Source: a virus
IMG/VR virus record: IMGVR_UViG_3300030099_004588
Location: 1-49,628 of that record
DNA length: 49,628 bases
Reading direction: 5' to 3' (one strand)
Below the pieces are notes generated by a model. That model saw nothing but the letters and a program-made list of their open reading frames with translations, did no database searches and was not told the DNA's origin. The position numbers and the translations under genes are program-made. Below, one piece after another: positions 12,805 through 49,513 of the stretch (position 1 is its first letter; the number at the start of each line of letters is the position of its first letter).

Positions 12805-12835
12805 TTTGATATTAATATAAAAAAAATTATATTTG
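12805..12835 (+). promoter_or_regulatory. Strong Bacteroidetes-type promoter for the head cassette
   Basis: TTTG at 12805-12808 is followed after 19 bases by TATATTTG at 12828-12835, a full match to the Bacteroidetes primary sigma consensus (TTTG, then TAnnTTTG at about 17-23 bases). It lies in the 60-base gap between portal and scaffold genes and would start a transcript about 25 bases before the scaffold ATG. It would allow separate high expression of scaffold and capsid. Confidence 0.8.
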
Positions 12836-13976: not shown

Positions 13977-15368
13977 ATGGCAACAGTAAGTTTAGCCTCA
14001 GGAATGGTGCCAACACCTTCTAATGTGGCAGTTGCAACTACATCAAACTATGTAGGTACATCAACGTTAATTAACGCTGACCGTACAGATGGTATTCCAT
14101 TACATAAACGTGATGTAGATGAGCAACTAATTAAGCGATACGGTAATCAAGGGATTACTGGATTAATGGAATTGTTGGGTAATAAAAAAGAAACAACAAA
14201 CCAAACTTTTGAACACTATGAAGAAACTTTCCTTCACAATCACTTTACAGGTGTTATTGGCGGTGGTTCAGGTGTTGTTAATATAGATGACACTTTTGAT
14301 GACTTAGCTAATGGTAATGGTAGAGTTGCATTAAGAGTAGGAGATTTAGTTTTAGGTGGATCAGGTTCTATGTACTATGTTTCTGCTGGATCTGGAGATG
14401 ACTATACTTTAAAAAATCTTTCAGATAATAATACAGCTAGTAATGATGCAGACACAAAGTTTACTATTATTGGTAATGCTTATGCTGAAAGAACAGAGCA
14501 GCCAGTTGGTATTACACCTCGTGTAGATCAATACCAAAACAAGTGTCAAATTATTAAAGAATCATTTACTGTTTCAGGATCTGAAGCTACGAATGTTATT
14601 TATGTAAAAGTAAGCAACCAAGAATTTGGTACTGGTTACTTATGGTACTTACAAGGTGAGGCTGATACTTACCAAAGATTTATGGACTACTCTGAGCTTG
14701 CAATGATTGTGGGTGATGCTGGTGGTGGATCTTTAACTGACGCTTCATCTAACTCTGTTGTAACTACAGAAGGTTTATTAAAGTTTATCGAGAACAAAGG
14801 TCAAACTATGGATCTTGGTTCTTCAGCAATTACAATGGCTGACTTTGATGCTGCTGTAAAATCTTTAGATAAACACAGAGGTGCTAAAGAAATGGCTCTT
14901 TACGCTGGTATTAACTTATCTTTAGATATTGACGACTTATTAGCTTCACAAGGAGCTTATGCTGCTGGTGGTGCTAACTATGGTACTTTTGCTAACAGCA
15001 AAGACATGGCGTTGAATTTAGGCTTTAATTCTTTCCATCGTGGTGGTTACACTTTCCACAAGAAAACTTATGACCTATTTAACCGTCCTGACTTATTAGG
15101 TGGTGATGGATTTAAATTCAATGGTTTCGGTATGTGTATCCCTATGGATAATCAAAGAGATCCACGATCAGGAGAAAGCATTCCTTCTTTACGTATGCGA
15201 TACAAAGCTGCGAATGGTTACTCTCGTGAGATGGAGCACTGGTTAACTGGATCTGCGGTTCTACAAAACAGAACTAACGAGAAAGACGAGTTGCGATCTC
15301 ACTACCGTACTGAACGTGGTTTTGAAGGATTTGCTCCTAACCGTTTCTTATTGTTCAAAAAATCATAA
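13977..15368 (+). CDS. Major capsid protein
   Basis: A 463-aa protein in the standard capsid position after the scaffold. The composition is typical of a HK97-fold capsid protein: few Cys, many Gly/Ala/Ser, and alternation of strand and helix. Recognisable stretches include LHKRDVDEQLIKRYGNQGI near residue 40 and TERGFEGFAPNRFLLF at the end, of the type I know from capsid proteins of Bacteroidetes short-tailed phages. The coding sequence uses more C-ending codons than its neighbours (for example AAC, TAC, CTT), which fits strong expression. No N-terminal maturation site is evident. It is served by the promoter at 12805 and the terminator at 15809. Confidence 0.88.
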   Translation: MATVSLASGMVPTPSNVAVATTSNYVGTSTLINADRTDGIPLHKRDVDEQLIKRYGNQGITGLMELLGNKKETTNQTFEHYEETFLHNHFTGVIGGGSGVVNIDDTFDDLANGNGRVALRVGDLVLGGSGSMYYVSAGSGDDYTLKNLSDNNTASNDADTKFTIIGNAYAERTEQPVGITPRVDQYQNKCQIIKESFTVSGSEATNVIYVKVSNQEFGTGYLWYLQGEADTYQRFMDYSELAMIVGDAGGGSLTDASSNSVVTTEGLLKFIENKGQTMDLGSSAITMADFDAAVKSLDKHRGAKEMALYAGINLSLDIDDLLASQGAYAAGGANYGTFANSKDMALNLGFNSFHRGGYTFHKKTYDLFNRPDLLGGDGFKFNGFGMCIPMDNQRDPRSGESIPSLRMRYKAANGYSREMEHWLTGSAVLQNRTNEKDELRSHYRTERGFEGFAPNRFLLFKKS

Positions 15369-15394: not shown

Positions 15395-15781
15395 ATGGAG
15401 AAATATTTTTATTTTAGAAAAGATGCTACTACAGCTAATGATGATGATCAAGTAAATGGATCTAACTTAGTTAAGGTATCAGATCTTATTAGTATGGAAG
15501 CCACAGGAAACACTAGTTTAGTTTTAAGATTCCATCCTCGTATGAACGCTTTTGCTGCTGGTGGTAATGCTGCTGCTGATGCTGATAATCTTACGGATAC
15601 TTTAACATTGACTGTTGGTACTAATGCACAGAGAACTGTTATTGAAACTATTTGTGCTGCTATTGCTAAACCAATGATTGCAGGTGCACCAAACTTAATT
15701 GTTTTGTTTGATGCAAATTCAAAAGATGGATTAGATGGTATTACAGATGTTGTTACTGCTGTAGCTGCTGCTCAAGCTTAA
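15395..15781 (+). CDS. Small capsid-associated protein candidate (decoration)
   Basis: A 128-aa protein rich in Ala, Asp, Asn and Thr. Strands such as TSLVLRFHPRM and DTLTLTVGT alternate with an Ala-rich helix (VIETICAAIAKPMIAG) and an Ala-rich end. No family is recognised. It is the last gene of the cassette with scaffold and capsid, separated from the capsid gene by 26 bases and followed by a strong terminator, so it should be made in capsid-like amounts. That makes a decoration or minor head protein the best guess. Confidence 0.75.
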   Translation: MEKYFYFRKDATTANDDDQVNGSNLVKVSDLISMEATGNTSLVLRFHPRMNAFAAGGNAAADADNLTDTLTLTVGTNAQRTVIETICAAIAKPMIAGAPNLIVLFDANSKDGLDGITDVVTAVAAAQA

Positions 15782-15808: not shown

Positions 15809-15833
15809 GGAAGGGGCTTGTCCCCTTCCTTTT
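15809..15833 (+). terminator. Intrinsic terminator after head cassette
   Basis: A perfect 8-bp stem GGAAGGGG (15809-15816) / CCCCTTCC (15822-15829) with loop CTTGT, followed by TTTT. It lies 28 bases after the 128-aa gene. It isolates the scaffold-capsid transcript from the following gene. The hairpin is almost the same sequence as the one on the other strand at 44322-44340. Confidence 0.85.
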
Positions 15834-39143: not shown

Positions 39144-39177
39144 TTTGCAAACACTATATAATTAAATAATTAATTAT

Positions 39178-39185: not shown

Positions 39186-39200
39186 TATTACTTTTCTAAG

Positions 39201-39215
39201 GTTCCATTCTGGAAC
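39201..39215. other. Small hairpin GTTCC/GGAAC
   Basis: GTTCC (39201-39205) and GGAAC (39211-39215) enclose the 5-base loop ATTCT; downstream on the + strand is AGTTTGCTTTTTT. It could be a weak first terminator for the late operon 58 bases after its stop. It also lies within the 14-codon frame on the other strand. Confidence 0.4.
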
Positions 39216-39264
39216 AGTTTGCTTTTTTGTTCGCATTCATAGATTAGTTTTTTGGTTGTTTGAG

Positions 39265-39293
39265 AAGGAGGGGTAGTTCCCTCCTTTTTTTTT
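39265..39293 (+). terminator. Intrinsic terminator ending the late genes
   Basis: AAGGAGGG (39265-39272) pairs perfectly with CCCTCCTT (39279-39286), loop GTAGTT, followed by a run of T to 39293. It lies 122 bases after the giant gene's stop and marks the end of the + strand late transcription. Confidence 0.85.
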
Positions 39294-39307
39294 ACTATAT
39301 TAGCTCT

Positions 39308-39439
39308 ATGGAAATAGGTATACAATTAATCAATGGGGTAGTGTTTGGATTTAGACTATTCCCTCCAACAGAATCTATGCCATACAACGAACTCCAGCTA
39401 TTTGCTGGAGTTATATGCTTTTATGTTGTTTGGGATTAA
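39308..39439 (+). CDS. Small hydrophobic protein (43 aa)
   Basis: A 43-codon frame, MEIGIQLINGVVFGFRLF then PPTESMPYNELQLFAGVICF and YVVWD. The pattern of a short hydrophobic N-terminal segment, a polar PYNE turn and a second hydrophobic segment is one I recognise from very small proteins found in marine phage genomes, function unknown. It starts 15 bases after the late terminator, so its promoter must be nearby or it depends on read-through. Its TAA (39437-39439) overlaps the stop of the convergent gene by two bases. A perfect 9-bp inverted repeat lies inside it. Confidence 0.6.
   Translation: MEIGIQLINGVVFGFRLFPPTESMPYNELQLFAGVICFYVVWD
39390..39412. other. Perfect 9-bp inverted repeat
   Basis: AACTCCAGC (39390-39398) and GCTGGAGTT (39404-39412) with loop TATTT. 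It lies inside the 43-aa gene, close to the convergence point of the two genome arms, and could slow or stop RNA polymerase from both sides; a weak T-run only follows. Confidence 0.5.
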
Positions 39440-39591
39440 TTCTCGCAACTAGAGCAGTCATCTTCTTCCCCACAGCATTCTTCATCTTCAGGGTCAACAA
39501 GGTCAACTATCCAAGATTCAAATAATTTTTCTTTAGATTCATCTGATCTTTTTAACGCTTCTCGTAAAGCTTCGTCTCTGTCGTGTAACAT
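39436..39591 (-). CDS. Small acidic protein with Cys-rich tail (51 aa)
   Basis: A 51-codon frame. The N-terminal half is a charged helix (MLHDRDEALREALKRSDESK), the middle is SWIVDLVDPEDEE and the end has CCGEEDDCSSCEN with four Cys that could bind a metal. No family known to me. It is the last gene of the - strand arm. Its stop TTA/TAA at 39436-39438 overlaps that of the convergent + gene. The upstream DNA contains the structured element 39606-39660. Confidence 0.65.
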   Translation of the reverse strand: MLHDRDEALREALKRSDESKEKLFESWIVDLVDPEDEECCGEEDDCSSCEN

Positions 39592-39605
39592 TACTATATT
39601 ATTTT

Positions 39606-39660
39606 AAAAAAGTATTGGGGGGGTCGCATGGACGACCAAATCTCAAAAACCCCCCGAATA
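39606..39660 (-). terminator. Long G/C-run hairpin, - strand terminator or structured RNA
   Basis: TATT plus a 7-G run (39613-39623) can pair with a 6-C run plus GAATA (39650-39660), 10 of 11 positions, closing a 26-base loop. Inside it a smaller stem GGTCG/CGACC (39622-39626 and 39633-39637) competes. Read on the - strand the outer stem is followed by ACTTTTTT, so it can end transcripts from the nuclease gene at 39722. G-runs of this length are rare in this AT-rich genome. An adjacent CCTAGC/GCTAGG stem (39670-39695) may be part of the same structure. Confidence 0.6.
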
Positions 39661-39721
39661 CAAGAACAACCTAGCCCATATTGCTTAAAGCTAGGATTTA
39701 TATATGTAGCACTCACGCAGC

Positions 39722-40186
39722 TTACTCTCGTTTTTTAGAACCCCTACCTAAGATGGTATCGACTGCAATATCGACCTCCTTTTGATTTGATGGGACATAT
39801 ACGTCTAATTTTTGATCGGTATCATGAAGATACTTTAAAAACAGCTTGAATCGCATCTTAAACTCAGGGGTTCTTATTCCTTTTGTTTCTATGATAAAAC
39901 CCTTCTCTAAATTAATAAAGTCTGGCGTATAAGATATATTTCTTATATTACCAGGCTTTTTTTTAAAGGTAGTTTTACCTTTTGTTTTTCCCTTATCCAT
40001 AAGAAGTCCTTCAAACTTGAATTTCTCTACAAGCTCAAAAGTTTTTCCTTCGTATTGATTTGGGATCTTTGCTTTTTTAAGGGCTCTATAACAGTAAAGC
40101 TCTAGTCCTGAGGCAAATGTAATTCCATCTGCGATGTGTTTCTTAGCTTTAGTTATCTGCTTTCCTTTTCTTCTCTTGAATCGCAT
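39722..40186 (-). CDS. PD-(D/E)XK endonuclease, DUF1064-like
   Basis: A 154-aa basic protein with a clear PD-(D/E)XK nuclease core: Glu29 in ASGLELYCYR, Pro88-Asp89 in SYTPDF, and Glu100-Thr-Lys102 in IIETKGI, followed by a helix with EFKMRFKLFLKYL. This is the arrangement of phage DUF1064/Holliday-junction-type nucleases, including the function of T7 gp3. It could resolve branched replication DNA before packaging or digest host DNA. The C-terminus is very basic. It is the second-last gene of the - strand arm, followed by a terminator-like structure. The substrate is not decided by the sequence. Confidence 0.82.
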   Translation of the reverse strand: MRFKRRKGKQITKAKKHIADGITFASGLELYCYRALKKAKIPNQYEGKTFELVEKFKFEGLLMDKGKTKGKTTFKKKPGNIRNISYTPDFINLEKGFIIETKGIRTPEFKMRFKLFLKYLHDTDQKLDVYVPSNQKEVDIAVDTILGRGSKKRE

Positions 40187-40206
40187 TAAGCTAAGATATG
40201 AAATAA

Positions 40207-40446
40207 TTATTTCTTACCTCTATTCCTAGCCCTATTTTTAGATTGACTTTCTAAAACAAGATTACCAGATTTAGTATGCGAAGCATCCTTTCCATCACCT
40301 TTCTTACCATTCTTTCTATTGAAAAGGTTTAGTTTAACACGATACTTCTTTCTTTGTTCAGATGAAGAATATTCGGAGTCGTACTTTTTTTTCTTTTTAT
40401 ACGACTCCTTATTCTTTCTATAATGTTTAGTGCTTTTACTTGCCAT
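40207..40446 (-). CDS. Small very basic conserved phage protein
   Basis: A 79-aa protein with about one third Lys/Arg. The order KHYRKNKESYKKKKKYDSEY, KKYRVKLNLFNRKNG, GDGKDASHTKSG and a basic tail is one I recognise from small conserved proteins in T4-like cyanophages and other marine phages, function unknown. No zinc or HNH residues are complete. DNA or RNA binding is likely from charge. It lies 20 bases upstream of the nuclease gene in the same operon. Confidence 0.75.
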   Translation of the reverse strand: MASKSTKHYRKNKESYKKKKKYDSEYSSSEQRKKYRVKLNLFNRKNGKKGDGKDASHTKSGNLVLESQSKNRARNRGKK

Positions 40447-40476
40447 GCTATATTATTGTAGCCTGCAAGATACGAA

Positions 40477-40668
40477 TTATTTCTTTTCTTTTGGAGGAGT
40501 TGGTATACCAAAAACGTATTTAGCAAGTTTATCTGCATTCTCTAAAAGAGATTTAGCGTTCTTACTTGTTGGTAGTCCTGAGGCTATCTCTAATACTCTA
40601 GCTCTCATTTCACAGTCAAACTTTAATAATCTAACCTGATGTTCTCTGTCTTTCTGTTGCTTGTTCAT
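40477..40668 (-). CDS. Hypothetical protein (63 aa)
   Basis: A 63-aa soluble helical protein, starting MNKQQKDREHQVRLLKFDCE and ending in a Pro/Lys tail (FGIPTPPKEKK). No known motif. It is preceded by the PD-(D/E)XK-like gene after two bases and followed by the small basic gene, all in one direction, and its amino acid composition fits a real protein. Role unknown. Confidence 0.7.
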   Translation of the reverse strand: MNKQQKDREHQVRLLKFDCEMRARVLEIASGLPTSKNAKSLLENADKLAKYVFGIPTPPKEKK

Positions 40669-40670
40669 GT

Positions 40671-41114
40671 CTAAAATTTAATTATAGTTAGTAAATCTAA
40701 GTCTATATAGAATAATAATTCTCTATCCCATATAGATCCTGGTCGTGGGTTTTTCATGCCACCCCACTCAACTGTGGCTTTTGTTATTTCGTGCATCCAA
40801 ATATAACCAATTCCATCTAGAAATCTCCAAGCTATACATAAAGGTAGTTGCTTTTGAAGTGCTTCTTTTTGACAATGCTGTATTTTTCTAACTGAAGTTC
40901 TAACTCTTTGTATGTCTTTCATGTTAAGACTCATAGTTTTAACCTCACAAAGAGAAATAACCTTCATGGTTTTGTTGTCTATAATCTCAGCATCTACTGG
41001 TGCGTACTTATCTAGCTGCTCAAAGGTTAAATCTTTACCCTCTAATAGTATACGAAGAGTTTCAGCTTCTCGTTGCCTATCTTCTTTACTTTCAAATCGG
41101 GGTTCCAGTCTCAT
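40671..41114 (-). CDS. Possible PD-(D/E)XK-type nuclease (147 aa)
   Basis: A 147-aa protein. The central part, YAPVDAEIID followed by ISLCEVKTMSLNM, has the D-x(n)-E-x-K spacing of a PD-(D/E)XK core; an upstream helix and a following helix with Lys/Arg-rich HCQKEALQKQ agree. IAWRFLDGIGYIWMHEI supplies another strand pair. This is a weaker match than the nuclease at 39722 because no PD is present. It overlaps the Nmad1 gene by 23 bases. The alternative is an unrelated hypothetical protein. Confidence 0.7.
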   Translation of the reverse strand: MRLEPRFESKEDRQREAETLRILLEGKDLTFEQLDKYAPVDAEIIDNKTMKVISLCEVKTMSLNMKDIQRVRTSVRKIQHCQKEALQKQLPLCIAWRFLDGIGYIWMHEITKATVEWGGMKNPRPGSIWDRELLFYIDLDLLTIIKF

Positions 41115-41451
41115 CTTCTTCGTAACTTACCCAATCATAACTAAATGGTGTCTCATTTTCTTCGTACTTTTCTGCAGACTTAATAGTTTCACTCATTCTT
41201 CTATCTACTTCATCCATGTAAACTTGAAGAAGTATAAGGTAACCTGTAAGATCCATGAGATCATTCTCACTCATGTAAGTCTCCTTACTTTTTATACGGT
41301 TCAGCTTGTCGTTTATACGAGCTTGGATGGCGTACATAGGATCAACATTAAATAAAACTCCTTTATCAAAAACTGAGTTGCCGTAAGATTTATTCTTTTC
41401 TATTAATAAATCCCTGATCTCATCGCATTTTTTTCTTATTTCTTCCTGCAT
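41092..41451 (-). CDS. Nmad1 / DUF1599 family protein
   Basis: A 119-aa protein with the pattern of the nucleotide modification associated domain 1: LLIEKNKSYGNSVFDKG (about 16-32), then IQARINDKLNRIKS and NDLMDLTGYLILLQVYMDE, matching the conserved K-N-x-x-Y-G, R-I-x-D-K-L-x-R and D-L-x-G-Y-L-x-L. The acidic tail is extra. The family occurs near nucleotide and DNA modification genes of phages, but its reaction is not established. It overlaps both neighbours (32 and 23 bases), showing strong compaction. Confidence 0.82.
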   Translation of the reverse strand: MQEEIRKKCDEIRDLLIEKNKSYGNSVFDKGVLFNVDPMYAIQARINDKLNRIKSKETYMSENDLMDLTGYLILLQVYMDEVDRRMSETIKSAEKYEENETPFSYDWVSYEEDETGTPI

Positions 41452-41689
41452 TTTTATTTACTTTAGATTCGACAGCCTTCTTTTTAGCACTCTTATACTT
41501 ACGTTTATTCGATACTTGATCTTCAGAAACCTTTGTACTACGCTTAGTCTTAGATTTTTCTCTCTTGAGATCTTCAAGAACTCTGTTATTATGTCTTTCA
41601 CTTTCTTTAATTTTTTTAGAATACTTTACCATGTCCCACGCTATAAGAATAAATATAACGCAGACGACTGTTATCGCTACTACGATCAT
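41420..41689 (-). CDS. Small membrane protein with basic tail (89 aa)
   Basis: The first 18 residues are a hydrophobic membrane helix (MIVVAITVVCVIFILIAW). The remaining 70 are very Lys-rich with no hydrophobic segment (KREKSKTKRSTKVSEDQVSN and onward). It is probably an inner-membrane protein with a cytosolic basic tail that may hold nucleic acid. No family is known to me. The end overlaps the Nmad1 gene by 32 bases. ATG 41689 follows a TTTAATTTAATTTAA-like AT repeat. Confidence 0.65.
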   Translation of the reverse strand: MIVVAITVVCVIFILIAWDMVKYSKKIKESERHNNRVLEDLKREKSKTKRSTKVSEDQVSNKRKYKSAKKKAVESKVNKNAGRNKKKMR

Positions 41690-41718
41690 TTTAATTTAAT
41701 TTAATTGTTTAACTTAAT

Positions 41719-41907
41719 TTAACTATTCAAATTTTCTGACTCTTCTTTTAATAAAGCTCTGTTTAACTGAGCCATTGTTGTTACGTGTTCTGATTCAGGT
41801 TTACCTTCGTTGTACCTTTTAAGTAAAAAAGCTATATGCTCTTCACTTCTCATGCCCATTGGAGTTTGTTGTTCCCAACCCCACTGAATTGTTTTAAAGT
41901 CTTTCAT
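41719..41907 (-). CDS. Hypothetical protein (62 aa)
   Basis: A 62-aa helical acidic protein, MKDFKTIQWGWEQQTPMGMR at the start and MAQLNRALLKEESENLNS at the end. No known domain. The start is preceded by AACTATG, the same context as many genes of this arm. Spacing to its neighbours (18 and 29 bases) fits the operon. Confidence 0.7.
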   Translation of the reverse strand: MKDFKTIQWGWEQQTPMGMRSEEHIAFLLKRYNEGKPESEHVTTMAQLNRALLKEESENLNS

Positions 41908-41925
41908 AGTTATAAAATTTAATTA

Positions 41926-42117
41926 CTATTTTTTACCTCTTACTTTACCACCTGGTCTCTTTATTATTCCACCAAATCCATCGTAAGTTGAAATATCTTG
42001 CATTTGTTCTCCACAACTGCAAATTGATTCAGGCTTAATAACCTTATTATCAATGACTTTCATTGTAAATTTACTAACTTCAGTTGTTTTTTCACAATTT
42101 TTACAATATAATTTCAT
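41926..42117 (-). CDS. Small zinc-ribbon protein (63 aa)
   Basis: A 63-aa protein with two Cys pairs, CKNC at 4-7 and CSCG at 33-36, forming a probable zinc ribbon, followed by a Gly-rich basic tail (GGIIKRPGGKVRGKK). Proteins with this pattern occur widely in phage early regions, with no defined role. It may bind nucleic acid or be an adaptor to host polymerases. It stands between two hypothetical genes. Confidence 0.72.
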   Translation of the reverse strand: MKLYCKNCEKTTEVSKFTMKVIDNKVIKPESICSCGEQMQDISTYDGFGGIIKRPGGKVRGKK

Positions 42118-42128
42118 ATGTATATCTT

Positions 42129-42392
42129 TTAATGAACATCATGTGACATACATATAAACTCATAATCAGTTACGCTATCTATTTTTATTTGTATGTCGTT
42201 AGTTGATTTATGTTTTATCTCTAACCCCCTGACAAAGTGTTTAACATTCTGTAATTTTTCAGGATCAAGCTCAGTAATACATGTTCTGTGAGTAGCTTTT
42301 TTCCATTTCTTAGCAGCCTTTTCGACTCCCTTTACAAATCTTAATGTTCTCCATCTGTAGTGAACTGTAGCGTGATATATTTCTTTTCTCAT
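42129..42392 (-). CDS. Hypothetical protein (87 aa)
   Basis: An 87-aa basic protein starting MRKEIYHATVHYRWRTLRF. A helical basic section (KGVEKAAKKWKKATHRTC) and an alternating strand end (DIQIKIDSVTDYEFICMS) suggest an alpha/beta fold, but no family is recognised. It starts five bases after the stop of the 29-aa frame and is in the operon of the helicase. Confidence 0.7.
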   Translation of the reverse strand: MRKEIYHATVHYRWRTLRFVKGVEKAAKKWKKATHRTCITELDPEKLQNVKHFVRGLEIKHKSTNDIQIKIDSVTDYEFICMSHDVH

Positions 42393-42397
42393 TGAGT

Positions 42398-42487
42398 TTA
42401 CTTTTTATTTATTATTTTTTCTATAAACCAAAAAATAAATATAATGCCCATAATAAAGTCCGTTATCGTTTTAAAATTCCACTCCAT
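42398..42487 (-). CDS. Membrane microprotein (29 aa), coupled to helicase gene
   Basis: A 29-codon frame: MEWNFKTITDFIMGIIFIFW then FIEKIINKK. It is one membrane helix with a basic end. The ATG lies two bases after the helicase stop (TAGTTATG), so re-initiating ribosomes would translate it. Too short for homology; coupling, hydrophobic pattern and the otherwise empty gap support it. Role unknown. Confidence 0.45.
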   Translation of the reverse strand: MEWNFKTITDFIMGIIFIFWFIEKIINKK

Positions 42488-42489
42488 AA

Positions 42490-43812
42490 CTAAAAAGATT
42501 CTGATGGTTGAGCAGATATAAACTTCTCAGTGTAATCCTGAGGATCTATAAATTTAGTATACTCCTTCTTAAACTTAAGAGGTAGTGTGCCAGTGCCTAT
42601 ATTCCTACCTTTAGCAAAGATTAAATCTACAAGACCTTCGGTAGACTTTCCACTATCATCAGTCATAATGCCATAGTATTCAGGTCTATACACAAGCATA
42701 ACAATATCAGATGCCTGCTCTATCTCACCACTCTCACGAAGATCAGAAAGACTAGGTCTACAACCATCTCTTCTCTCCACACCCCTACTAAGCTGTGAGA
42801 GAGCCACTATTGTTATATTAAGCTCCTTAGCTAGATTCTTTAACTCACGAGCCACCATAGCAACCTCTTGTTCTCTAGATGTACCACTACCCTTAACAAG
42901 TTGTAGGTAATCCACAAGAACAAACTTAACCTCTTTAGTTATAACGTATTGTCTAATCTTATTAAGAAGATACCTAAGGGATGAATCCTTACACTCATCT
43001 ATAAATAGATTAACACCTTCTAGTTTACCTATAGCCTTGTCAACCCTATTAAGTTCATTACTTTCTAGAGCACCCTTCATTATGTATCTATTGTTTACCT
43101 CACTCTCTAAAGACACTAACCTCTGTAGTAGTTGGGTGTCGCCCATCTCGTAAGAGAATACTGCAGATGGAATACCTACCTTAGCACAATTGTAGCAGAA
43201 GGCTAAACCTAGTGATGTCTTACCCATAGATGAAGCACCACCAATTACGATAAAGTCTGTCTCTTGCCACCCACCAGTAAACTTATCTACTGATTGAAAG
43301 CCTGTAGGTAGACCAACCATGTTTTCAGAGTCCATTCTCCTTCTTATGTCATCATGCAGTATCTTTAACTGCTTTTTAATATCAGGTATGTCACTACCCC
43401 TGACCTCAGATATAGACTTCATTTGCTCTTCTACAAACTCTATAACGTTAAACAAGTCATCACCATTATCAATCCTCTTTGTGGTAAGCTCTGCCAACTT
43501 CTTAAGCCTTATCTTTTTATCTTCTTGGGATAGATATAAGACCATGTTCTTTGTCATATAAGCGTAATGATCAGAGCTCATGCACTCAGCCACCCTAAGA
43601 TCAACAAGAGGATCTTTAATAGCAGAGGATATAACAATCATGTCAGCCTTACTTCCTTTATCTAGCTTATCTGATACCACTCTATATATCTTCCTATTCA
43701 AAGGATCAGTAAATATCTCCTCAGATATTAGGCTGTGGCAGTCGTAATAATCTCGTGGATTAGACATAATCTTACCGATAAGCCTCATCTCCATATCCAT
43801 GTTATCTTTCAT
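42490..43812 (-). CDS. dnaB: Replicative DNA helicase, DnaB family
   Basis: A 440-aa DnaB-type hexameric helicase that unwinds duplex DNA ahead of the replication fork. The N-terminal helical domain (about 1-105) is followed by a linker and a RecA-type motor. Walker A is GGASSMGKTS (191-200), the catalytic acid lies in SYEM (220-223), Walker B is VLVDYLQLV with Asp301, the arginine region has LSQLSRGVERR, and DLRESGEIEQASD is the expected H4 segment. The length fits the family. The gene overlaps the putative loader by 11 bases. M5 and M7 are alternative starts. No primase domain or primase gene is visible, so host DnaG may serve. Confidence 0.95.
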   Translation of the reverse strand: MKDNMDMEMRLIGKIMSNPRDYYDCHSLISEEIFTDPLNRKIYRVVSDKLDKGSKADMIVISSAIKDPLVDLRVAECMSSDHYAYMTKNMVLYLSQEDKKIRLKKLAELTTKRIDNGDDLFNVIEFVEEQMKSISEVRGSDIPDIKKQLKILHDDIRRRMDSENMVGLPTGFQSVDKFTGGWQETDFIVIGGASSMGKTSLGLAFCYNCAKVGIPSAVFSYEMGDTQLLQRLVSLESEVNNRYIMKGALESNELNRVDKAIGKLEGVNLFIDECKDSSLRYLLNKIRQYVITKEVKFVLVDYLQLVKGSGTSREQEVAMVARELKNLAKELNITIVALSQLSRGVERRDGCRPSLSDLRESGEIEQASDIVMLVYRPEYYGIMTDDSGKSTEGLVDLIFAKGRNIGTGTLPLKFKKEYTKFIDPQDYTEKFISAQPSESF

Positions 43813-44296
43813 CTGAAATGTATTTAGGTTTAACGTATCGGTTAGTTTTCTTTTTATTTAAACTGACTTCATCCTCCCAACCCCTAGCATTAAGCCAAGT
43901 TCTAGGAAATTTTCTGTAAGTTCTATCAGGAGTCGATTCAACATAAGCCTTCACTCCTTTTATGGCATCACCCATTTGAGTTAAGGTTAAGTTCATAAAT
44001 GTCTTTCTTGTGTTAGGCTTATCTTTTTTGTAATCATATAAATTCCAAAACATTTCAAATGCTTTTTCTTTTCTTTGCGTTTCGTTCTTAGGTTTAGCAT
44101 TTCCATTAAGCCTTAGATCCATAGTATTAAAGTGGTTAACAATATTATTGAAAACACAATTAGATTCTATCTCGTTATTATATATAGATCGGTGTGTATT
44201 TGTTGAAGTATAAAAGTTTATACAACTACCATCAACCTCAATAAATTCTACCTTATCTATATTAATAATATCTGTGTCTGATACTCTGTACTTCAT
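43802..44296 (-). CDS. Helicase-loader / replication initiation candidate
   Basis: A 164-aa protein. The longest frame would begin at 44332, but that ATG is inside the terminator hairpin 44315-44340, so Met at 44296 (MKYRVSDTDIINI), preceded by AAAACTATG, is chosen. The C-terminal half has FEMFWNLYDYKKDKPNTRKT followed by YRKFPRTWLNARGWEDE. This F-W-x-x-Y ... P-x-T-W-L-N-x-x-x-W-x-D pattern is shared by phage replisome organisers and DnaT-like loaders. The N-terminal 60 residues are a small beta domain (KVEFIEVDGSCINFYTSTNT) with LytTR-like spacing. It overlaps the helicase gene, so the loader role fits. The fusion of the two parts is the odd point. Confidence 0.72.
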   Translation of the reverse strand: MKYRVSDTDIINIDKVEFIEVDGSCINFYTSTNTHRSIYNNEIESNCVFNNIVNHFNTMDLRLNGNAKPKNETQRKEKAFEMFWNLYDYKKDKPNTRKTFMNLTLTQMGDAIKGVKAYVESTPDRTYRKFPRTWLNARGWEDEVSLNKKKTNRYVKPKYISDER

Positions 44297-44314
44297 AGTT
44301 TTTTTTGGTTGTTT

Positions 44315-44340
44315 AAAAAAGGGAGGGGACAAGCCCCTCC
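44315..44340 (-). terminator. Terminator or attenuator between SSB-like and loader genes
   Basis: On the - strand GGAGGGG (44340-44334) pairs perfectly with CCCCTCC (44328-44322), loop CTTGT, followed by TTTTTT (44320-44315). It lies four bases after the SSB-like stop and 18 bases before the loader ATG, so part of the transcripts should end before helicase. Confidence 0.85.
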
Positions 44341-44344
44341 ATCT

Positions 44345-44611
44345 TTAGAATGGTAAGTCATCAGCTACTGCTTCTTTCTTAACTTCTGGTTTGTAAGTAT
44401 TCACTTCAACGTAGTGAGTCTTACCATACTCGTTAGTTTCTTTCATCTTAGCTACCTTTAGCTTGATGAATTTTTCACCATTGTACTCGAACATGTGATC
44501 TGTTGCTTCTTTGCCTAATTTAGTTAGGTTTAAAGAGAACTCTACCATGTCCCCATCAAATTTTTCTACCCCGTTTCCAACGTAGATTCTGTTAGTTGTT
44601 TTGTTACTCAT
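44345..44611 (-). CDS. Single-strand DNA-binding-like protein with DDLPF tip
   Basis: An 88-aa protein with a strand-rich core (VEFSLNLTKLGKEA, EKFIKLKVAKMKE, KTHYVEVNTYKP) and the acidic hydrophobic end ADDLPF. Bacterial SSB proteins end in DDxIPF, a tip that recruits exonucleases, RecO and other partners; DDLPF is the same kind of ending. The core is shorter than a complete SSB OB domain (about 110 aa) and no typical SSB sequence is evident. The position with recombination and helicase genes, and the strong terminator immediately behind it, suit an abundant ssDNA-binding protein. The start overlaps the HTH gene by 8 bases. Confidence 0.72.
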   Translation of the reverse strand: MSNKTTNRIYVGNGVEKFDGDMVEFSLNLTKLGKEATDHMFEYNGEKFIKLKVAKMKETNEYGKTHYVEVNTYKPEVKKEAVADDLPF

Positions 44612-44813
44612 AGCTTTCAGCTTTTATAAAATAATTAACTAGTGCCTTCCTTTCTGTTGTTTTTATATACTTAGCAATCCTTCTAAGGTGTTTAACTTTA
44701 AACTCGTCAGGTTTATCTAGGTATTTGTCTAGGGTAGGTCGGCTTAACCCTAATCTTTCTGCAAGCCAAGGCTTGTATATTTTGTTTTCTTTTAACTTTT
44801 CTTTTAGTGTCAT
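44604..44813 (-). CDS. Small HTH DNA-binding protein
   Basis: A 69-aa protein with a helix-turn-helix of the Cro/C1 or excisionase type: KPWLAERLGLSRPTLDKYLD (about 19-38) with the turn at GLS and recognition helix after it. A second helical part contains VKHLRRIAKYI. It could repress or activate early genes, or act as a host-factor-like initiation protein. It overlaps RecE (4 bases) and SSB-like genes (8 bases), which binds its expression to theirs. No operator can be assigned. Confidence 0.8.
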   Translation of the reverse strand: MTLKEKLKENKIYKPWLAERLGLSRPTLDKYLDKPDEFKVKHLRRIAKYIKTTERKALVNYFIKAESYE

Positions 44814-45577
44814 AGTGTTTCCATTATTAAATGTTGTTCAACGATCTCCTCGTTGTCTATAAAGAATCTTCTGTAAACATCTAGTAGATACTTATACTCT
44901 TGTCTACCTCTCTCTACAAACTCATCTCCAGCATAAAATATAGAAACATTATAAGGTCTCTCTTTCTCCTGAGTTATAAATACAAACTCATCACAATCAA
45001 ATCCATCCATATAGAAGGCTGATTGTCTATCATAGCCATACCTCTTACAAGAGTTAGAGAATCCATAGAAGCTACCATCTGCAGTAGTTTTTAAGTCTAC
45101 TAATAACTTTCCATTACGATAGTCTGCTTTACCCTTACAGAACACGTTTGTATCTTCATCCTTCCAAGCGTTAGCTATCTCCCTCTCCCCTTCTGATTGA
45201 AGAAGATCTTTAACTTCAGAGTGACTAAACAAAACATCTTGCATGTACATAATCTTATCATATTCCTTCTGTAAGATTATTGTAGGTGCTTTAGGATTAT
45301 TCTCCTTAAACTCTTTAAAACCTTTAGTAGTTCTTGTAGCTGAATTAAATACTAAAACTTTATCGTTAAACTCGTTAGGCTCTAACATAGCTACATGGTA
45401 TGCTCTACCAAAAATCATAGGTAAAGTCTCTTTGTTAAGCTCAGGATGATCCCTCATCATCTTATAAGTTCTAACATCCTTCTTTATTAACCCTAACTGC
45501 GAGTTCGTTACAAACTCGTAGTCAGAGTAATAAAAGGAGTCATCGACTAGTTTTTTTATAAACTTATCTAAACTCAT
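44810..45577 (-). CDS. RecE-type 5'-3' exonuclease
   Basis: A 255-aa protein of the PDDEXK exodeoxyribonuclease VIII family (as in RecE/YqaJ-like phage exonucleases). Residues: FGRAYHVAMLEPNEF with His61, CKGKADY with Asp152, VDLKTT with Asp161 and Lys163, and YDRQSAFYMDG with Gln185 and Tyr189, all at the expected order. It degrades one strand of dsDNA ends, making ssDNA for the Erf annealing protein encoded directly upstream (the start and stop codons of the two share one base). The pair works as the phage recombination system in replication and repair. Confidence 0.9.
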   Translation of the reverse strand: MSLDKFIKKLVDDSFYYSDYEFVTNSQLGLIKKDVRTYKMMRDHPELNKETLPMIFGRAYHVAMLEPNEFNDKVLVFNSATRTTKGFKEFKENNPKAPTIILQKEYDKIMYMQDVLFSHSEVKDLLQSEGEREIANAWKDEDTNVFCKGKADYRNGKLLVDLKTTADGSFYGFSNSCKRYGYDRQSAFYMDGFDCDEFVFITQEKERPYNVSIFYAGDEFVERGRQEYKYLLDVYRRFFIDNEEIVEQHLIMETL

Positions 45578-46149
45578 TACACTAAGGTCTTAGATATTTT
45601 AAGAACTTTGTTAAGATTATCTTGTTGAGTTTTAGTCATAGTATATCCAGCCATCTTTTGCTCTACTACACTACCTTTACCATCCTCAATAGCCTTCATC
45701 ATACTCTTGTATTGAGATTCTGTTAGCTTAGGTTTAGACTTTGAAGTTGTAGTTGATTTTGGACTAGAACCTTTCACAGCCATGTTACCATCATCATCAT
45801 CTCCTGTAACTACACCAACAAATGATGCAAGAGCATATCTTCTAGCATAAGATATAGCAGAACCCACACCATGTGCGTCTTCTTTAGCAGGTATATAGCA
45901 AGTTGATGCTAGGTATTCTCCACTAGAATGTGATAAGATTGTTGTTACACCACCTACATCAGTAGGCATCTGAATAATAGCTAACTCATTATCTGCTAGT
46001 AGTTTACGAACAGAGTCCCATACTGATCCAAGATCGGCATAGCTTGACTTGAAGAAAGGGTTTTTTGAGTTTTCTTTTGCAGGTCTTAATTGAGACTGCA
46101 CTTTCGATAAGGCAAGGGTTAGCTTGCCAATTGTTTCTGACTTTTCCAT
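45577..46149 (-). CDS. erf: ERF-family single-strand annealing protein
   Basis: A 190-aa recombinase of the ERF superfamily. The diagnostic NPFFKSSYADLGSVWDSVRK (about 30-49), the strand region GGVTTILSHSSGEYLAST, and GSAISYARRYALASFVGV (95-112) are all present. The C-terminal third is a Ser/Lys/Thr linker (SPKSTTTSKSKPK) and a short helical end. It anneals complementary ssDNA made by the RecE-type exonuclease encoded next. The promoter box 46183-46190 lies 33 bases upstream. Confidence 0.93.
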   Translation of the reverse strand: MEKSETIGKLTLALSKVQSQLRPAKENSKNPFFKSSYADLGSVWDSVRKLLADNELAIIQMPTDVGGVTTILSHSSGEYLASTCYIPAKEDAHGVGSAISYARRYALASFVGVVTGDDDDGNMAVKGSSPKSTTTSKSKPKLTESQYKSMMKAIEDGKGSVVEQKMAGYTMTKTQQDNLNKVLKISKTLV

Positions 46150-46182
46150 AGTTTTTGGTTTTAATTAAATTAACTTCTGTTG

Positions 46183-46190
46183 CAAATGTA
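46183..46190 (-). promoter_or_regulatory. Bacteroidetes -7 box for the recombination-replication genes
   Basis: On the - strand the site reads TACATTTG, full TAnnTTTG. No TTTG at 17-23 bases upstream is evident. It is in the only longer gap of this part, 34 bases before the Erf ATG, and would serve Erf, RecE, HTH and SSB-like genes up to the terminator at 44315. Confidence 0.65.
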
Positions 46191-46211
46191 TGTAAATTAT
46201 TTTACATATTA

Positions 46212-46574
46212 CTATATTATTCCTAAAATATTATACGATATATCTTCAGGCATTATTCTCTCTAGGCTTTGAGTTATACCTTCCATAACTAGATCTAAAT
46301 CAATATCGTTGTTTACTACCATTAAAACACTTATACCATCTTCTGAAGGCATCATAAGGGTGTGGCACAAGGCGTTATGCTTTCCTATATCTACCTGCGT
46401 TACTGCAAGACTATCTGTCTGATGAAAGTACATATAGTTTACCCCATGCTTTTTTAAAGCTACCTCTAAACGCTTCATGTTTGGATGCTTATTTGGTCTT
46501 ATTCGGTTGTCTAGTTTGTAGTCTATACCTGACTCTTTAAGTAAGTTCTCCAGCATTTCTTTTTCGTATTGCAT
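46212..46574 (-). CDS. Hypothetical protein (120 aa)
   Basis: A 120-aa alpha/beta protein, with strand segments YMYFHQTDSLAVTQV and ISVLMVVNNDIDLDLV. No family is known to me. The N-terminus overlaps the preceding gene by 38 bases from the first Met; Met7 at 46556 would reduce this. It is the last gene before the promoter of the recombination operon. Confidence 0.7.
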   Translation of the reverse strand: MQYEKEMLENLLKESGIDYKLDNRIRPNKHPNMKRLEVALKKHGVNYMYFHQTDSLAVTQVDIGKHNALCHTLMMPSEDGISVLMVVNNDIDLDLVMEGITQSLERIMPEDISYNILGII

Positions 46575-46875
46575 AGACTTTGTAGATAAATTCTATTAAA
46601 GATAACTCTTTTTCTAGTAATTCCTCAAGATCTTCGTTGCTAAAAGATCTATCTATCGCATCTATTATGTTATATATTTTAACTTTATTGTTTGATGTGT
46701 CTAGTTTAAATAGTTTTTTACCTTTTAAAAGGGACTGTATACTATCTATGTCATTAATTATAGGATTGATATACTTTCTCTGTACTTTAGCGTATAGAAC
46801 ATACTTAGCACAAGGATCTTTCTCTCCCCTCATCCAAACTTGATCTACATCGATTGTCTTTACTTGGTTGTTCAT
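46537..46875 (-). CDS. Hypothetical protein (112 aa)
   Basis: A 112-aa protein with MNNQVKTIDVDQVWMRG at the start and a helical Glu-rich C-terminus (NEDLEELLEKELSLIEF). The charge and helix pattern suggests an oligomer or binding protein. No conserved domain recognised. It lies one base after the stop of the 98-aa gene. Confidence 0.7.
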   Translation of the reverse strand: MNNQVKTIDVDQVWMRGEKDPCAKYVLYAKVQRKYINPIINDIDSIQSLLKGKKLFKLDTSNNKVKIYNIIDAIDRSFSNEDLEELLEKELSLIEFIYKVYAIRKRNAGELT

Positions 46876-46876
46876 T

Positions 46877-47173
46877 TTATTTTTGTTTATCAGGATCTTC
46901 TACAAAAAAATCCATAAGTTTATCTAGCTCTACATCTAAATCATTTATAACATTTTTAATCAATGGATCTGACGATTCTAAAGAATGAAGCGTTTTATGA
47001 GCATTATAAGTTGTTATAAAGCCTTGAGTTATTAATATCTCTTGCTCTCTAATTCTTTTCTCCATAGCCTTTATTCTTATTCTTTGAAATTCTTCTACTT
47101 CCATAATTAGTTTCTTTACTTTGTTTATATTTCCTTGATGTACCCATGTGTGTTTATTGAAATCCACCATCAT
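46877..47173 (-). CDS. Hypothetical helical protein (98 aa)
   Basis: A 98-aa helical protein, with VKKLIMEVEEFQRIRIKAME and LVSx-free heptad-like continuation, ending LDKLMDFFVEDPDKQK. Probable coiled coil, otherwise unknown. The first ATG overlaps the preceding TGA (ATGA), which supports Met1 as start. Confidence 0.68.
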   Translation of the reverse strand: MMVDFNKHTWVHQGNINKVKKLIMEVEEFQRIRIKAMEKRIREQEILITQGFITTYNAHKTLHSLESSDPLIKNVINDLDVELDKLMDFFVEDPDKQK

Positions 47174-47445
47174 TCTAGTTTTCTAATTATTCTGTTAAAC
47201 TCTAACTCTGTTTTTACAGATATATCTTTTGATATTTTTTTAAAGTAATCAGACCTACCCATCTCTCTAGATTGCATATCTAAAAATTCTACTATCAAAT
47301 CTCTAATTTGTTTTAGCACTTGAGCATCCCTCATCTTTAACTCAAACTCTAGCATAGGCAAAGAGTCAAGTGAACTAAAGTTAGATGAGTCTACTTCCCT
47401 TACCATCCATATCATCCTACTTATAAATTGTTGTCTAGTTTCCAT
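47170..47445 (-). CDS. Hypothetical helical protein (91 aa)
   Basis: A 91-aa helical protein starting METRQQFISRMIWMVREVD and ending in a charged helix (VKTELEFNRIIRKLE). No recognised motif. It lies between two hypothetical genes and its start is preceded by GCTATG, similar to other early gene starts here. It shares ATGA with the next gene. Confidence 0.68.
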   Translation of the reverse strand: METRQQFISRMIWMVREVDSSNFSSLDSLPMLEFELKMRDAQVLKQIRDLIVEFLDMQSREMGRSDYFKKISKDISVKTELEFNRIIRKLE

Positions 47446-47448
47446 AGC

Positions 47449-47640
47449 TTATAGTTTTGTGTAAGACAATACTTGAAATTCTCCTATCGGATCTTCAAGG
47501 GTAAATGATTCTATCTCATCCTCGTTTTCAAATGTGTAGAATATAGTATCATCATCTACGGATGCTGGATTTGTAGATACAATCTTTGTTTCAACACAAA
47601 GGTCATCCCACCATTTTATTTCTACTTCGTATAGTGCCAT
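47449..47640 (-). CDS. Hypothetical acidic protein (63 aa)
   Basis: Met at 47640 (MALYEVEIKWWDDLCVETK) is chosen over an upstream in-frame ATG at 47658 because it forms TAATG with the stop of the upstream gene. The product is 63 aa, acidic, probably a small beta protein (VSTNPASVDDDTIFYTFENE, ESFTLEDPIG). Similar short ASVDEDTIFYT-type proteins are common in phages, without a known role. Confidence 0.7.
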   Translation of the reverse strand: MALYEVEIKWWDDLCVETKIVSTNPASVDDDTIFYTFENEDEIESFTLEDPIGEFQVLSYTKL

Positions 47641-47906
47641 TATAAATGTCCCCCCCATTTTTCGTTAATAACATCATACCTTGTTTCTCTATCTGCTTCA
47701 ATTTCATCCATGTGAGGTACTTCGCCAAGCCCTGTCCCATATTCAAGTTCAGCAGTTTCAAACTTATCATCTAAGGCTTGCTCCCAAGAATCATTACCCC
47801 ATAGCCACTCATCAGTTTCTTCTAATGGTATGTCGTTTGGTATCTCCATTGTTATCTTAGCCACCTTATGATATACTCTGCGTTCTGTTATTGTTACTTT
47901 TCTCAT
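47640..47906 (-). CDS. Hypothetical acidic protein (88 aa)
   Basis: An 88-aa acidic protein. The first 26 residues form a beta hairpin pattern (KVTITERRVYHKVAKITMEI), followed by PNDIPLEETDEWLWGNDSWE. No family assigned. It ends in a TAATG overlap with the following gene. Located in the block of small early proteins that probably affect host functions. Confidence 0.7.
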   Translation of the reverse strand: MRKVTITERRVYHKVAKITMEIPNDIPLEETDEWLWGNDSWEQALDDKFETAELEYGTGLGEVPHMDEIEADRETRYDVINEKWGGHL

Positions 47907-47917
47907 GTCTTTTAGTT

Positions 47918-48322
47918 TTATTGTAATTCTACAACCATGTTAATATTAAATATCTCGTAGTAATCTCCTATTGCCCCATGTATAGCGTTGTCCTCTCCTA
48001 TACACACCATAGTTCTACCAAATACATTAAACTCATCATCAGCACAACAATCGTAAGCCATATCTTCTATAAAAGAGTTTACTGCATCTACATCCTTATA
48101 TCCCTCGTACCACTTGAGGTGGTTTCCATGATAGATAGCGTACTCTGTAGATTCATCTACAAGATCATCATTATCATTATACCTAACCCACTTCTGTGTG
48201 TAGTCCTCTTTAGTAAAGGGAGGGTAGTCCCCCTCAAGTAATTTGTGTTCGTTCATGATAGCATCTAATTCTTTCTCATCTCTTTTTGGTACTGCTATAT
48301 GTACCTCGCTTCTATATCCCAT
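47918..48322 (-). CDS. Conserved phage hypothetical protein (134 aa)
   Basis: A 134-aa acidic alpha/beta protein, starting MGYRSEVHIAVPKRDEKELD, a start I have seen in hypothetical phage and bacterial proteins (MGYRSxV). A WYEGYKDVDAVNSFIEDM segment and a final strand (NINMVVEL) follow. No catalytic motif. Its place among small early genes suggests host takeover, but there is no direct proof. Confidence 0.75.
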   Translation of the reverse strand: MGYRSEVHIAVPKRDEKELDAIMNEHKLLEGDYPPFTKEDYTQKWVRYNDNDDLVDESTEYAIYHGNHLKWYEGYKDVDAVNSFIEDMAYDCCADDEFNVFGRTMVCIGEDNAIHGAIGDYYEIFNINMVVELQ

Positions 48323-48327
48323 AATTT

Positions 48328-48492
48328 CTAGTTGTTTTGGTTATTGCTTTTAGTTTTTTTGTTTCTATTCTTTTTATATATAGTGTACTGATATTCTTCA
48401 TCAGCCATTCTACCTCTTAACTCTCTCTCTATGTTTATACCTTCCATAAAGCCTTGAGCCATTTCCATAAATAATTCTTTAGTTTTTCCCAT
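48328..48492 (-). CDS. Small basic hypothetical protein (54 aa)
   Basis: A 54-codon frame: MGKTKELFMEMAQGFMEGIN, IERELRGRMADEEYQYTIYK and a Lys/Asn-rich tail. The start MGKTKELFMEM resembles short conserved phage proteins that I have seen, without known function. It overlaps the upstream gene end by 14 bases, and the gap to the next gene is 5 bases, so it fills a space that would otherwise be empty. Confidence 0.6.
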   Translation of the reverse strand: MGKTKELFMEMAQGFMEGINIERELRGRMADEEYQYTIYKKNRNKKTKSNNQNN

Positions 48493-48742
48493 TGTTATAA
48501 TCTTTAATAAATTCTACTATTAAATAATGTACTTGTTGTATGTTAGGTATTGCTAATCTAATTTCATCAACACTCCAATAATCTAATTCGGGATTCTCAA
48601 GGTGCTTATATTGTATCTTTTCAATTACTGGCATAAGCCTATTCCAATCTGTATGGTATTGGTTAAACATATTACTACTTTGTGCTTCGTAGTGTTTACC
48701 AACCCCCATAAATTCTGCTATAAGTTTGTTATTTTCTTCCAT
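48479..48742 (-). CDS. Hypothetical protein (87 aa)
   Basis: An 87-aa protein with aromatic-rich helices, including MFNQYHTDWNRLMPVIEKIQ and IQQVHYLIVEFIKDYNNG. Similar in composition to other short phage proteins of unknown function. The start context is AACACTATG. It is four bases from the upstream gene. Confidence 0.7.
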   Translation of the reverse strand: MEENNKLIAEFMGVGKHYEAQSSNMFNQYHTDWNRLMPVIEKIQYKHLENPELDYWSVDEIRLAIPNIQQVHYLIVEFIKDYNNGKN

Positions 48743-48746
48743 AGTG

Positions 48747-48959
48747 TTAGTCGTTTGCGTTGTTAATAATTCTTTGATCTAAATCGTTTATACAATCTAC
48801 ACTAAGGTAGTCGTATAGAAAGTCTGTAATATCTACTGCCATCATTGTCTTTCTACAATGAAACATAATGTTATTGACTTCTAAATCTTCGTTGGTAACG
48901 TAGGCATCCACTACTACTTCGTAGTCTTTACCCTCTTGCAAAGTTGTTTGTGTATTCAT
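48747..48959 (-). CDS. Hypothetical acidic protein (70 aa)
   Basis: A 70-aa acidic protein with VVVDAYVTNEDLEVNNIMFH and a Leu/Asp-rich C-terminus. No known domain. The leader on the - strand reads AACCAATAAACTAAAAACTATG and closely resembles that of the next gene upstream (49133). Confidence 0.68.
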   Translation of the reverse strand: MNTQTTLQEGKDYEVVVDAYVTNEDLEVNNIMFHCRKTMMAVDITDFLYDYLSVDCINDLDQRIINNAND

Positions 48960-48986
48960 AGTTTTTAGTTTATTGGTTGTGCAATA

Positions 48987-49133
48987 TTATTGTCTCCTTT
49001 TTGGCTTCTTATTAATTATAGGAGATATGTATTTTCTATTTATTTTTTTTGGTTTCTCTAGTTCTTTTGTTGTTTTATTTTCTTTAATCATTTTAGTAAT
49101 TACACTAAAATATCTTTCTGATAATTCATCCAT
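48987..49133 (-). CDS. Small basic hypothetical protein (48 aa)
   Basis: A 48-codon frame: MDELSERYFSVITKMIKENK then a Lys-rich half (KKINRKYISPIINKKPKRRQ). It has no known family. The leader reads AACCAAAAACTAAACTAC and ends AAAACTATG. A full promoter match lies 57-85 bases upstream. Spacing and leader support a real gene. Confidence 0.55.
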   Translation of the reverse strand: MDELSERYFSVITKMIKENKTTKELEKPKKINRKYISPIINKKPKRRQ

Positions 49134-49189
49134 AGTTTTTGTAGTTTAGTTTTTGGTTAGGCAATATTAGTAAATATATTTTACATATG

Positions 49190-49218
49190 CAAATTTAATT
49201 TTCTTCAGCGTTATCAAA
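49190..49218 (-). promoter_or_regulatory. Bacteroidetes-type promoter in the early arm
   Basis: On the - strand TTTG (49218-49215) is followed after 17 bases by TAAATTTG (49197-49190), both elements matching the consensus. It overlaps the end of the 54-aa gene and would start transcripts about 50 bases before ATG 49133. Confidence 0.65.
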
Positions 49219-49359
49219 ATCCCTTACAATTTCGATCGGAATTCTATAAACTATATTAGTTTCTTTATCCATCCAAAGTTCAAACTCTACTCCATCTCCA
49301 TCACTATACCAATTTAATCTATCAATAATTTCTTTAGTTATCTTATTCTTTTTTTCCAT
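49195..49359 (-). CDS. Small acidic hypothetical protein (54 aa)
   Basis: A 54-codon frame: MEKKNKITKEIIDRLNWYSD, then GDGVEFELWMDKETNIVYRI and an acidic end. It looks like a helix followed by a beta hairpin. No family known. The start context is AAAACTATG, as in many genes of this arm, and the gap to the upstream gene is 4 bases. Confidence 0.58.
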   Translation of the reverse strand: MEKKNKITKEIIDRLNWYSDGDGVEFELWMDKETNIVYRIPIEIVRDFDNAEEN

Positions 49360-49363
49360 AGTT

Positions 49364-49513
49364 TTATCTGTATTTTTTATTTGTGCTTTCTATTTCTAAT
49401 TTAAGTCTTTCAATCTTAAAGTTGTATTCTTCTTTCATTTGTTCATAGTCTATGACTATTTTGTTATCATCATCAATATGATAATATATCGGTACACTTA
49501 TTGTTTGCTTCAT
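49364..49513 (-). CDS. Small hypothetical protein (49 aa)
   Basis: A 49-codon frame: MKQTISVPIYYHIDDDNKIV then IDYEQMKEEYNFKIERLKLE and a short tail. One beta hairpin and one charged coiled-coil-like helix. No known family. It lies between two other small frames in the same direction and follows an AT-rich leader. Confidence 0.55.
   Translation of the reverse strand: MKQTISVPIYYHIDDDNKIVIDYEQMKEEYNFKIERLKLEIESTNKKYR

Follow-up and report, generated by a model that had tools for sequence, protein, structure and literature searches.

The window, which comprises all 49,628 nt of the IMG/VR virus record IMGVR_UViG_3300030099_004588 (positions 1-49,628) and belongs to a marine phage, carries a row of early genes on the minus strand. 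In the direction of reading, the row contains an Erf-like ssDNA annealing gene (45577..46149, phrog_2324), an exonuclease VIII-like gene (44810..45577, phrog_412), a small HTH gene of the Cro/C1 type (44604..44813, PF13443), an 88-aa SSB-like ORF (44345..44611), a replication initiation or helicase loader-like gene (43802..44296, phrog_270 and phrog_9327) and a DnaB-like replicative helicase gene (42490..43812, phrog_19, E 3.9e-79). No close phage was found for positions 36000-49628. The 88-aa ORF had no family match in PHROG or Pfam, and the putative label "SSB-like" was given from its gene order and from its acidic C-terminal tail, which ends in ...DDLPF; the final P87 and F88 were invariant in 37 aligned proteins. 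Its predicted structure (pLDDT 74, pTM 0.55) had no match in the PDB at E ≤ 0.001, the best being a VIA Z of 2.1, and five viral matches at E ≤ 0.001, none bearing a named function. A profile search of PDB sequences with the 88-aa ORF gave one match, of 17 residues only, to a designed-type entry.

A hairpin with a 7-bp stem and the loop CTTGT was identified on the minus strand directly behind this ORF, from the sequence and from fold prediction, and its stem is retained with other loops in relatives. Read from 44340 to 44322, GGAGGGG-CTTGT-CCCCTCC is followed by one C and then by a run of six T (44320..44315). The predicted energy of the fold was -13.3 kcal/mol (z -2.4), and six of the seven pairs are G-C. 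The hairpin thus has the features of an intrinsic terminator, a stable G+C-rich stem and a U-run after the stem (one C, six T). It starts 4 nt past the stop of the SSB-like ORF, and 18 nt lie between the T-run and the loader ATG at 44296, the same spacing that the first-pass annotation had reported. An alternative loader start in the ORF list, TTG at 44332, lies upstream of this ATG and within the hairpin. As a class, terminator-like sites were in no excess in the region 35000-49628 (9 sites, against 6.7 in shuffles, sd 3.0).

Promoters were searched with the Bacteroidetes pattern, a TTG-type -33 element and the -7 box TAnnTTTG; the consensus was taken from the flavobacteria, which use TAnnTTTG (PMC9723704). 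A full match on the minus strand at 49197, within the promoter-like sequence TTTTG...TAAATTTG (49190..49222), lies upstream of the early genes; upstream of 48959 the region has no ORF reaching 60 aa. Two further minus-strand matches, at 47766 and 40805, are inside genes. In the gap ahead of the Erf-like gene a TACATTTG box lacking a -33 match was found by the pattern scan (46183..46190, minus strand). Directly preceding this box, within 46183-46212 of the same strand, is the palindrome ATGTAAAATAATTTACAT, which resembles an operator and might serve the small HTH gene at 44604-44813. From 46190 down to 42928, a position within the helicase gene, the scan for the Bacteroidetes type gave no TAnnTTTG on the minus strand, in agreement with the earlier claim that no -7 box stands ahead of the loader and helicase genes. 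With no such box in the stretch from the SSB-like gene to the start of the helicase, expression of the loader and helicase genes seems, as judged from sequence, to depend on read-through past the hairpin.

An attenuating terminator is probably what the hairpin represents. An intrinsic terminator would delimit the SSB-like gene at its 3' end within the early gene row, polymerase arriving from upstream would mostly halt at the hairpin, and the fraction reading through would yield the loader and helicase messages, the hairpin acting as a fixed attenuator. Termination, its leakiness and the resulting protein ratio are all inferred, and the reading is drawn from the sequence, the fold prediction, the place of the hairpin, the absence of a -7 box between the genes, the structure of the same slot in relatives and, in the near clade, the turnover of loops with stem and T-run kept. 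A Flavobacterium transcriptome includes a class of RNAs formed where predicted intrinsic terminators stop transcription only partially (PMC9723704). Full termination at the hairpin, with a promoter of another type serving the loader and helicase genes, is unlikely. Phages may carry other promoter types, and weak sigma-70 sites were present on the minus strand at 44235 and 44206 (9 and 10 of 12 positions), both inside the loader gene; however, sigma-70-like sites were in no excess (44, against 59.8 in shuffles) and the gap itself is without TAnnTTTG.

A second, very similar hairpin was found on the plus strand at 15809..15829, again from sequence and fold prediction. Its stem of 8 bp (GGAAGGGG/CCCCTTCC) encloses the same loop, CTTGT, and is followed by the tail TTTTATAA; the predicted energy was -14.6 kcal/mol (z -3.6). 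Both hairpins read as previously described and both have stable predicted folds. The shared loop was likewise borne out, and the stems (7 and 8 pairs) differ solely by an extra A-T pair. Both had been placed directly after genes of abundant products. The first hairpin lies 4 nt past the SSB-like ORF; the second begins 27 nt past a 128-aa ORF with no PHROG or Pfam family (15395..15781, plus strand), itself behind the capsid candidate (13977..15368, plus strand; phrog_13704, 'virion structural protein'), and so does not immediately follow the capsid gene. Relatives of the capsid candidate are phages of Flavobacterium, Cellulophaga and Maribacter, at identities below 60%. The gap before this capsid gene group contains a promoter-like site with the -7 box TATATTTG (12828..12835, plus strand, from the pattern scan).

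The 13-base core GGGGCTTGTCCCC, searched with up to two mismatches through the 49,628-base record, occurred at these two sites only, where 0.13 sites were expected and two sites were reached in 1 of 100 shuffles; searched exactly, the core likewise occurred twice in the record. A functional link between the hairpins, or their being held alike by recombination, could account for the double occurrence, but is highly improbable. Slots behind the capsid group had a stem in 35 of 67 cases (a raw count, in which some stems lie within coding sequence), often GGAGGGG-like and with differing loops. Both slots in the relatives thus have stems of the same style, and each slot shows many unrelated loops; a meaning in the near-identity of the two is not supported. 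Among ten other genomes in which both slots could be read, a core common to both was found in one, the record of L068, with one loop inverted, and no concerted change of loops between the slots was seen. In that record the capsid slot reads GGAAGGGG-ACAAG-CCCCTTCC behind tandem repeats of the 128-aa-type ORF. As nine of the ten genomes lack a common core, the linked pair was rejected, and the likeness of the hairpins is best read, from these comparisons, as a common terminator style with no link. Two details of the L068 record, read as L299, were observed on the side: near position 1141 the stem equals that of 15809-15829 (plus strand) in the window, with the loop ACAAG for CTTGT, as if flipped between inverted repeats, and at 11-1112 the 128-aa-type ORF is present in three tandem copies between the capsid gene and the hairpin.

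Loci of relatives were collected from IMG/VR by way of the helicase (72 loci), the SSB-like protein (80 of 99) and the capsid (80 of 173), and the stretch that follows the SSB-like gene was obtained in at least 93 distinct sequences, a few of them clipped at contig ends. In 30 of 47 distinct slots a 30-nt hairpin folded at -9 kcal/mol or below, and the same was seen at 39 of 458 stops belonging to other ORFs in these loci; the 47 slots come from loci with both an SSB-like gene and a helicase, include near relatives and are not independent, and the control is a random 60% sample. Twelve of the 47 slots were weaker than -7; read by eye, nine of these hold the RNA called class A below and three a longer stem. 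The slot is thus structured far more often than other gene ends. The proposal of an attenuator made in the first-pass annotation is partly supported, namely in a terminator-like hairpin with a T-run, located where it would interrupt transcription between the SSB-like and loader/helicase genes, in the lack of a -7 box and in a structured slot in relatives; a meaning of the twin likeness is not supported. In L018, L019 and L020, which have an extra gene between slot and loader, the hairpin remains at the end of the SSB-like gene.

Plain hairpins with loops of up to 8 nt were tabulated as 26 stem types, 16 from loci with an SSB identity of at least 60% and 10 from more distant loci. Fifteen of the 16 near-clade types had at least four T in the next 8 bases; L093 (64% SSB identity) has no such T-run after its stem. 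GGAGGGG was retained in 11 of these 16 types with 11 differing loops, and the remaining ones change both arms, so that in the near clade the stem outlives changes of the loop. At SSB identities below 60%, three of the ten types had at least four T in the next 8 bases, and several of the distant stems are long and run into TATAAAAA in place of a T-run. Intrinsic termination by the T-run-less hairpins of these distant relatives is therefore unlikely on sequence grounds, and the missing T-run is the main evidence against reading the whole family as pure terminators. It also favours an explanation in which the fold would first of all guard the 3' end, blocking 3'-to-5' exonucleases or forming a processing site and so prolonging the SSB-like message, with termination secondary. 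This is a somewhat unlikely alternative for the hairpin at 44322..44340, because the T-run directly follows the fold in the near clade and in most members of the class B described below. The slot is modular, holding a plain hairpin, class A or class B depending on the relative. Since other folded RNAs occur at the same spot, what is kept appears to be the place and not the precise hairpin.

Class A, located in the SSB slot of some relatives, is an RNA some 75 nt long whose core is nearly fixed and whose predicted fold is pseudoknotted. A pattern search of IMG/VR gave 25 stretches, and more divergent members were supplied by phages whose SSB is of the DUF3127 type (phrog_4932, 'single strand DNA binding protein'). 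The structure comprises the helices P1, P2, P3 and P4 and the pseudoknot GCAGU/ACUGC, and 98.9% of cells were paired over 26 distinct sequences. Two-sided changes were observed in 11 of 24 pairs (42 cells) and in each of P1 to P4, a level reached by none of 500 shuffles; slid versions of the structure were 31-44% paired. All five pairs of the pseudoknot were invariant in 26 of 26 sequences, and the pseudoknot is thus putative, being proposed from complementarity alone. The closing stem is A+T-rich and the tail variable.

In 21 of the 26 sequences class A lies 6-69 nt past an ORF ending in LPF, which is of the 88-aa type in 13 and of the DUF3127 type in 8. It follows a fragment of an 88-aa-type gene in L043 and lies at a contig edge in L237; in L223, L228 and L232 it stands behind a PDDEXK_14 nuclease gene, the last early gene, ahead of a convergent giant gene. 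Nine of 12 records searched had a match, each with one copy per record. The DUF3127 phages had eight distinct slots, seven with class A and one (L290) with a plain hairpin and T-run. The core pattern had no match in bacterial genome contigs, and in named phages class A gave only chance-level short matches (2 records, 35% of the query). Divergent members were sought with the model R1: 60 sources gave three matches, at E 0.31 or worse, and in 64 sources nine class A members were found, all already known. L239, obtained with a looser pattern, was not class A. An identity of class A with one of the known small ribozymes was dropped after comparison with the pistol ribozyme; the strand from P4 to the closing strand of P3 is longer, and the scanned loci had no Rfam match. 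A short ORF of about 30 codons with a hydrophobic product (ATGATAATCA...) was noticed between class A and the loader gene in L040, L043, L086, L088 and L090.

Class B is a three-way junction of about 90-170 nt with a terminator-like closing stem and a T-run, which in most members comes directly after the fold. The class B pattern gave 29 stretches, of which 20 sequences form alignment A3. L251 was omitted as near-identical to L250, and L242, which matched the pattern, was left out as a G+C-rich sequence without such a fold. Over the 20 sequences 97.0% of cells were paired, and two-sided changes were observed in 11 of 20 pairs (55 cells); one of five measures, that of further pair types, was not above shuffles (489 of 500). 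The gene upstream is an SSB-like gene of 86-90 aa in 12 of 20 members and, in five, a 251-253-aa protein located before a DNA primase (phrog_12622). Of the other three, one sits at a contig edge and is followed by a primase-like gene of that kind; L256 and L262 stand behind other ORFs. The 251-253-aa protein had no PHROG or Pfam family, and its relatives in crAss-like phages are each named 'hypothetical protein'; a model of the 253-aa protein (pLDDT 35) had no PDB match. With neither a family nor a structure match, the label of SSB was withheld from it. Class B is optional in the lineage with this protein, where six of 14 distinct slots had a folded RNA (three of them class B), seven left too small a gap for one (12 nt or less) and one was ambiguous. 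A search of named phages for class B gave no match. Phages with the 251-253-aa protein also contain, by eye, a third element that looks folded; this class C is built around GTTATACTTTGTGA and has a long variable closing stem. It follows or precedes class B, or occurs by itself, in L240, L243, L245, L263, L265, L266, L268-L272 and L288, several of these loci being the same contig.

Where the early gene row of the window ends, a further conserved element, D, was found on the minus strand (39607..39734) from sequence conservation. Its motifs are, in order, CGAGAGTAAGCTGCGTGAGTGCTACA, TTGTTCTTG and a GGGGGG/CCCCCC stem with a T-run, and it was present in 8 of 16 records searched; in L223, L228, L232 and L295 it lies immediately 3' of class A. 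Its helices had two-sided changes in none of 17 pairs, and paired cells were no better than in shuffles. Element D is therefore conserved in sequence and ends like a terminator, with no more than a candidate fold. In named phages it gave chance-level short matches only (2 records, 20% of the query). The AAGCTGCGTGAGTGCTGCA hairpin of element D was seen duplicated in tandem in L018 (8238-8396) and L020 (9433-9592).

Known RNA families were searched with the covariance models of Rfam 15, STAXI included, at the gathering score. The window, 14 loci with various slots and 8 class B loci were scanned whole, a set that excludes the divergent class A loci L291-L298, and no match was found in the window or in these 22 loci; four short stretches gave sub-threshold matches only. 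A literature search on such RNAs, on phage SSB terminators and on transcriptomes of Cellulophaga phages, carried out by words and not by sequence, gave no named element of this kind. The plain hairpin resembles an intrinsic (Rho-independent) attenuator of a phage operon, with a G+C-rich stem, a short loop and a T-run between two genes of one row; unlike such an attenuator, the slot of relatives holds larger folds with conserved unpaired sequence. The L17 downstream element (RF01708) is also a folded RNA, located in a 3' UTR, and may feed back on the gene that precedes it (PMC2864571), but it belongs to another gene and other hosts and gave no Rfam match here.

The STAXI motif (RF01728) is, like class A, a pseudoknot near SSB and other DNA-handling genes; the STAXI pseudoknot is repeated two or three times and is listed for Enterobacteriales (PMC2864571), whereas class A is single-copy with P1-P4, and the scanned class A loci had no Rfam match at the gathering score. 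Action as single-stranded DNA, for example as a replication origin or cruciform, was considered for STAXI (PMC2864571). By analogy it might be imagined for the present elements, which also sit among replication genes. It is extremely improbable here, because every placed copy is on the strand of the upstream gene and G-U cells outnumber A-C cells by 15 to 1 in the named pairs of class A and by 45 to 2 in class B, where two nearly fixed U-G columns account for 35 of the 45. Such an excess fits pairing of the sense strand as RNA.

The additional structure in classes A and B bears on two of the alternatives. Both folds are richer than a terminator requires, and the A+T-rich closing stem and variable tail of class A, as well as its copies behind the last early gene, would suit a guard of the 3' end, as would the long T-run-less stems of distant relatives. 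The RNA folds might also act as switches of expression by way of a bound protein, which could be the SSB. The autoregulatory mRNA element of T4 gene 32 is a 5' pseudoknot that lies upstream of its gene. It is likewise a folded RNA associated with the SSB gene of a phage, and gp32 represses its own message (PMC535899); unlike it, the slot RNA is downstream of the SSB-like gene. Most copies of classes A and B follow SSB-type genes, in class A those of at least two families, and the class A pseudoknot is invariant. The downstream position, the three class A copies behind the nuclease gene and the two class B copies behind other ORFs all argue against such binding, which is very unlikely.

For the window itself, attenuation by the plain hairpin remains the preferred reading. 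A stronger result than the attenuator is the modular place as such, with two predicted folds supported by covariation and no known family among the scanned members. The slot behind SSB-type genes of Bacteroidetes phages could be a dock for interchangeable RNA modules, comprising plain terminators and at least two undescribed RNA families (A and B), with the job selected and the modules traded between lineages; the case for this proposal is evenly balanced. The same module behind unrelated SSB genes would mean that the job is what selection keeps. The job would be to set the level of SSB against that of helicase or primase, and the route could be termination, guarding of the 3' end, or sensing of a ligand or protein.

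A plain attenuator that separates SSB from helicase would be nothing unusual in the economy of a phage. Because the window has the plain version, classes A and B would be missed in a reading of this single genome. They provide two well-supported folds with a defined gene context for probing, and the swapping of a simple terminator for large conserved folds makes it possible to study the role of an RNA located where an SSB message ends.
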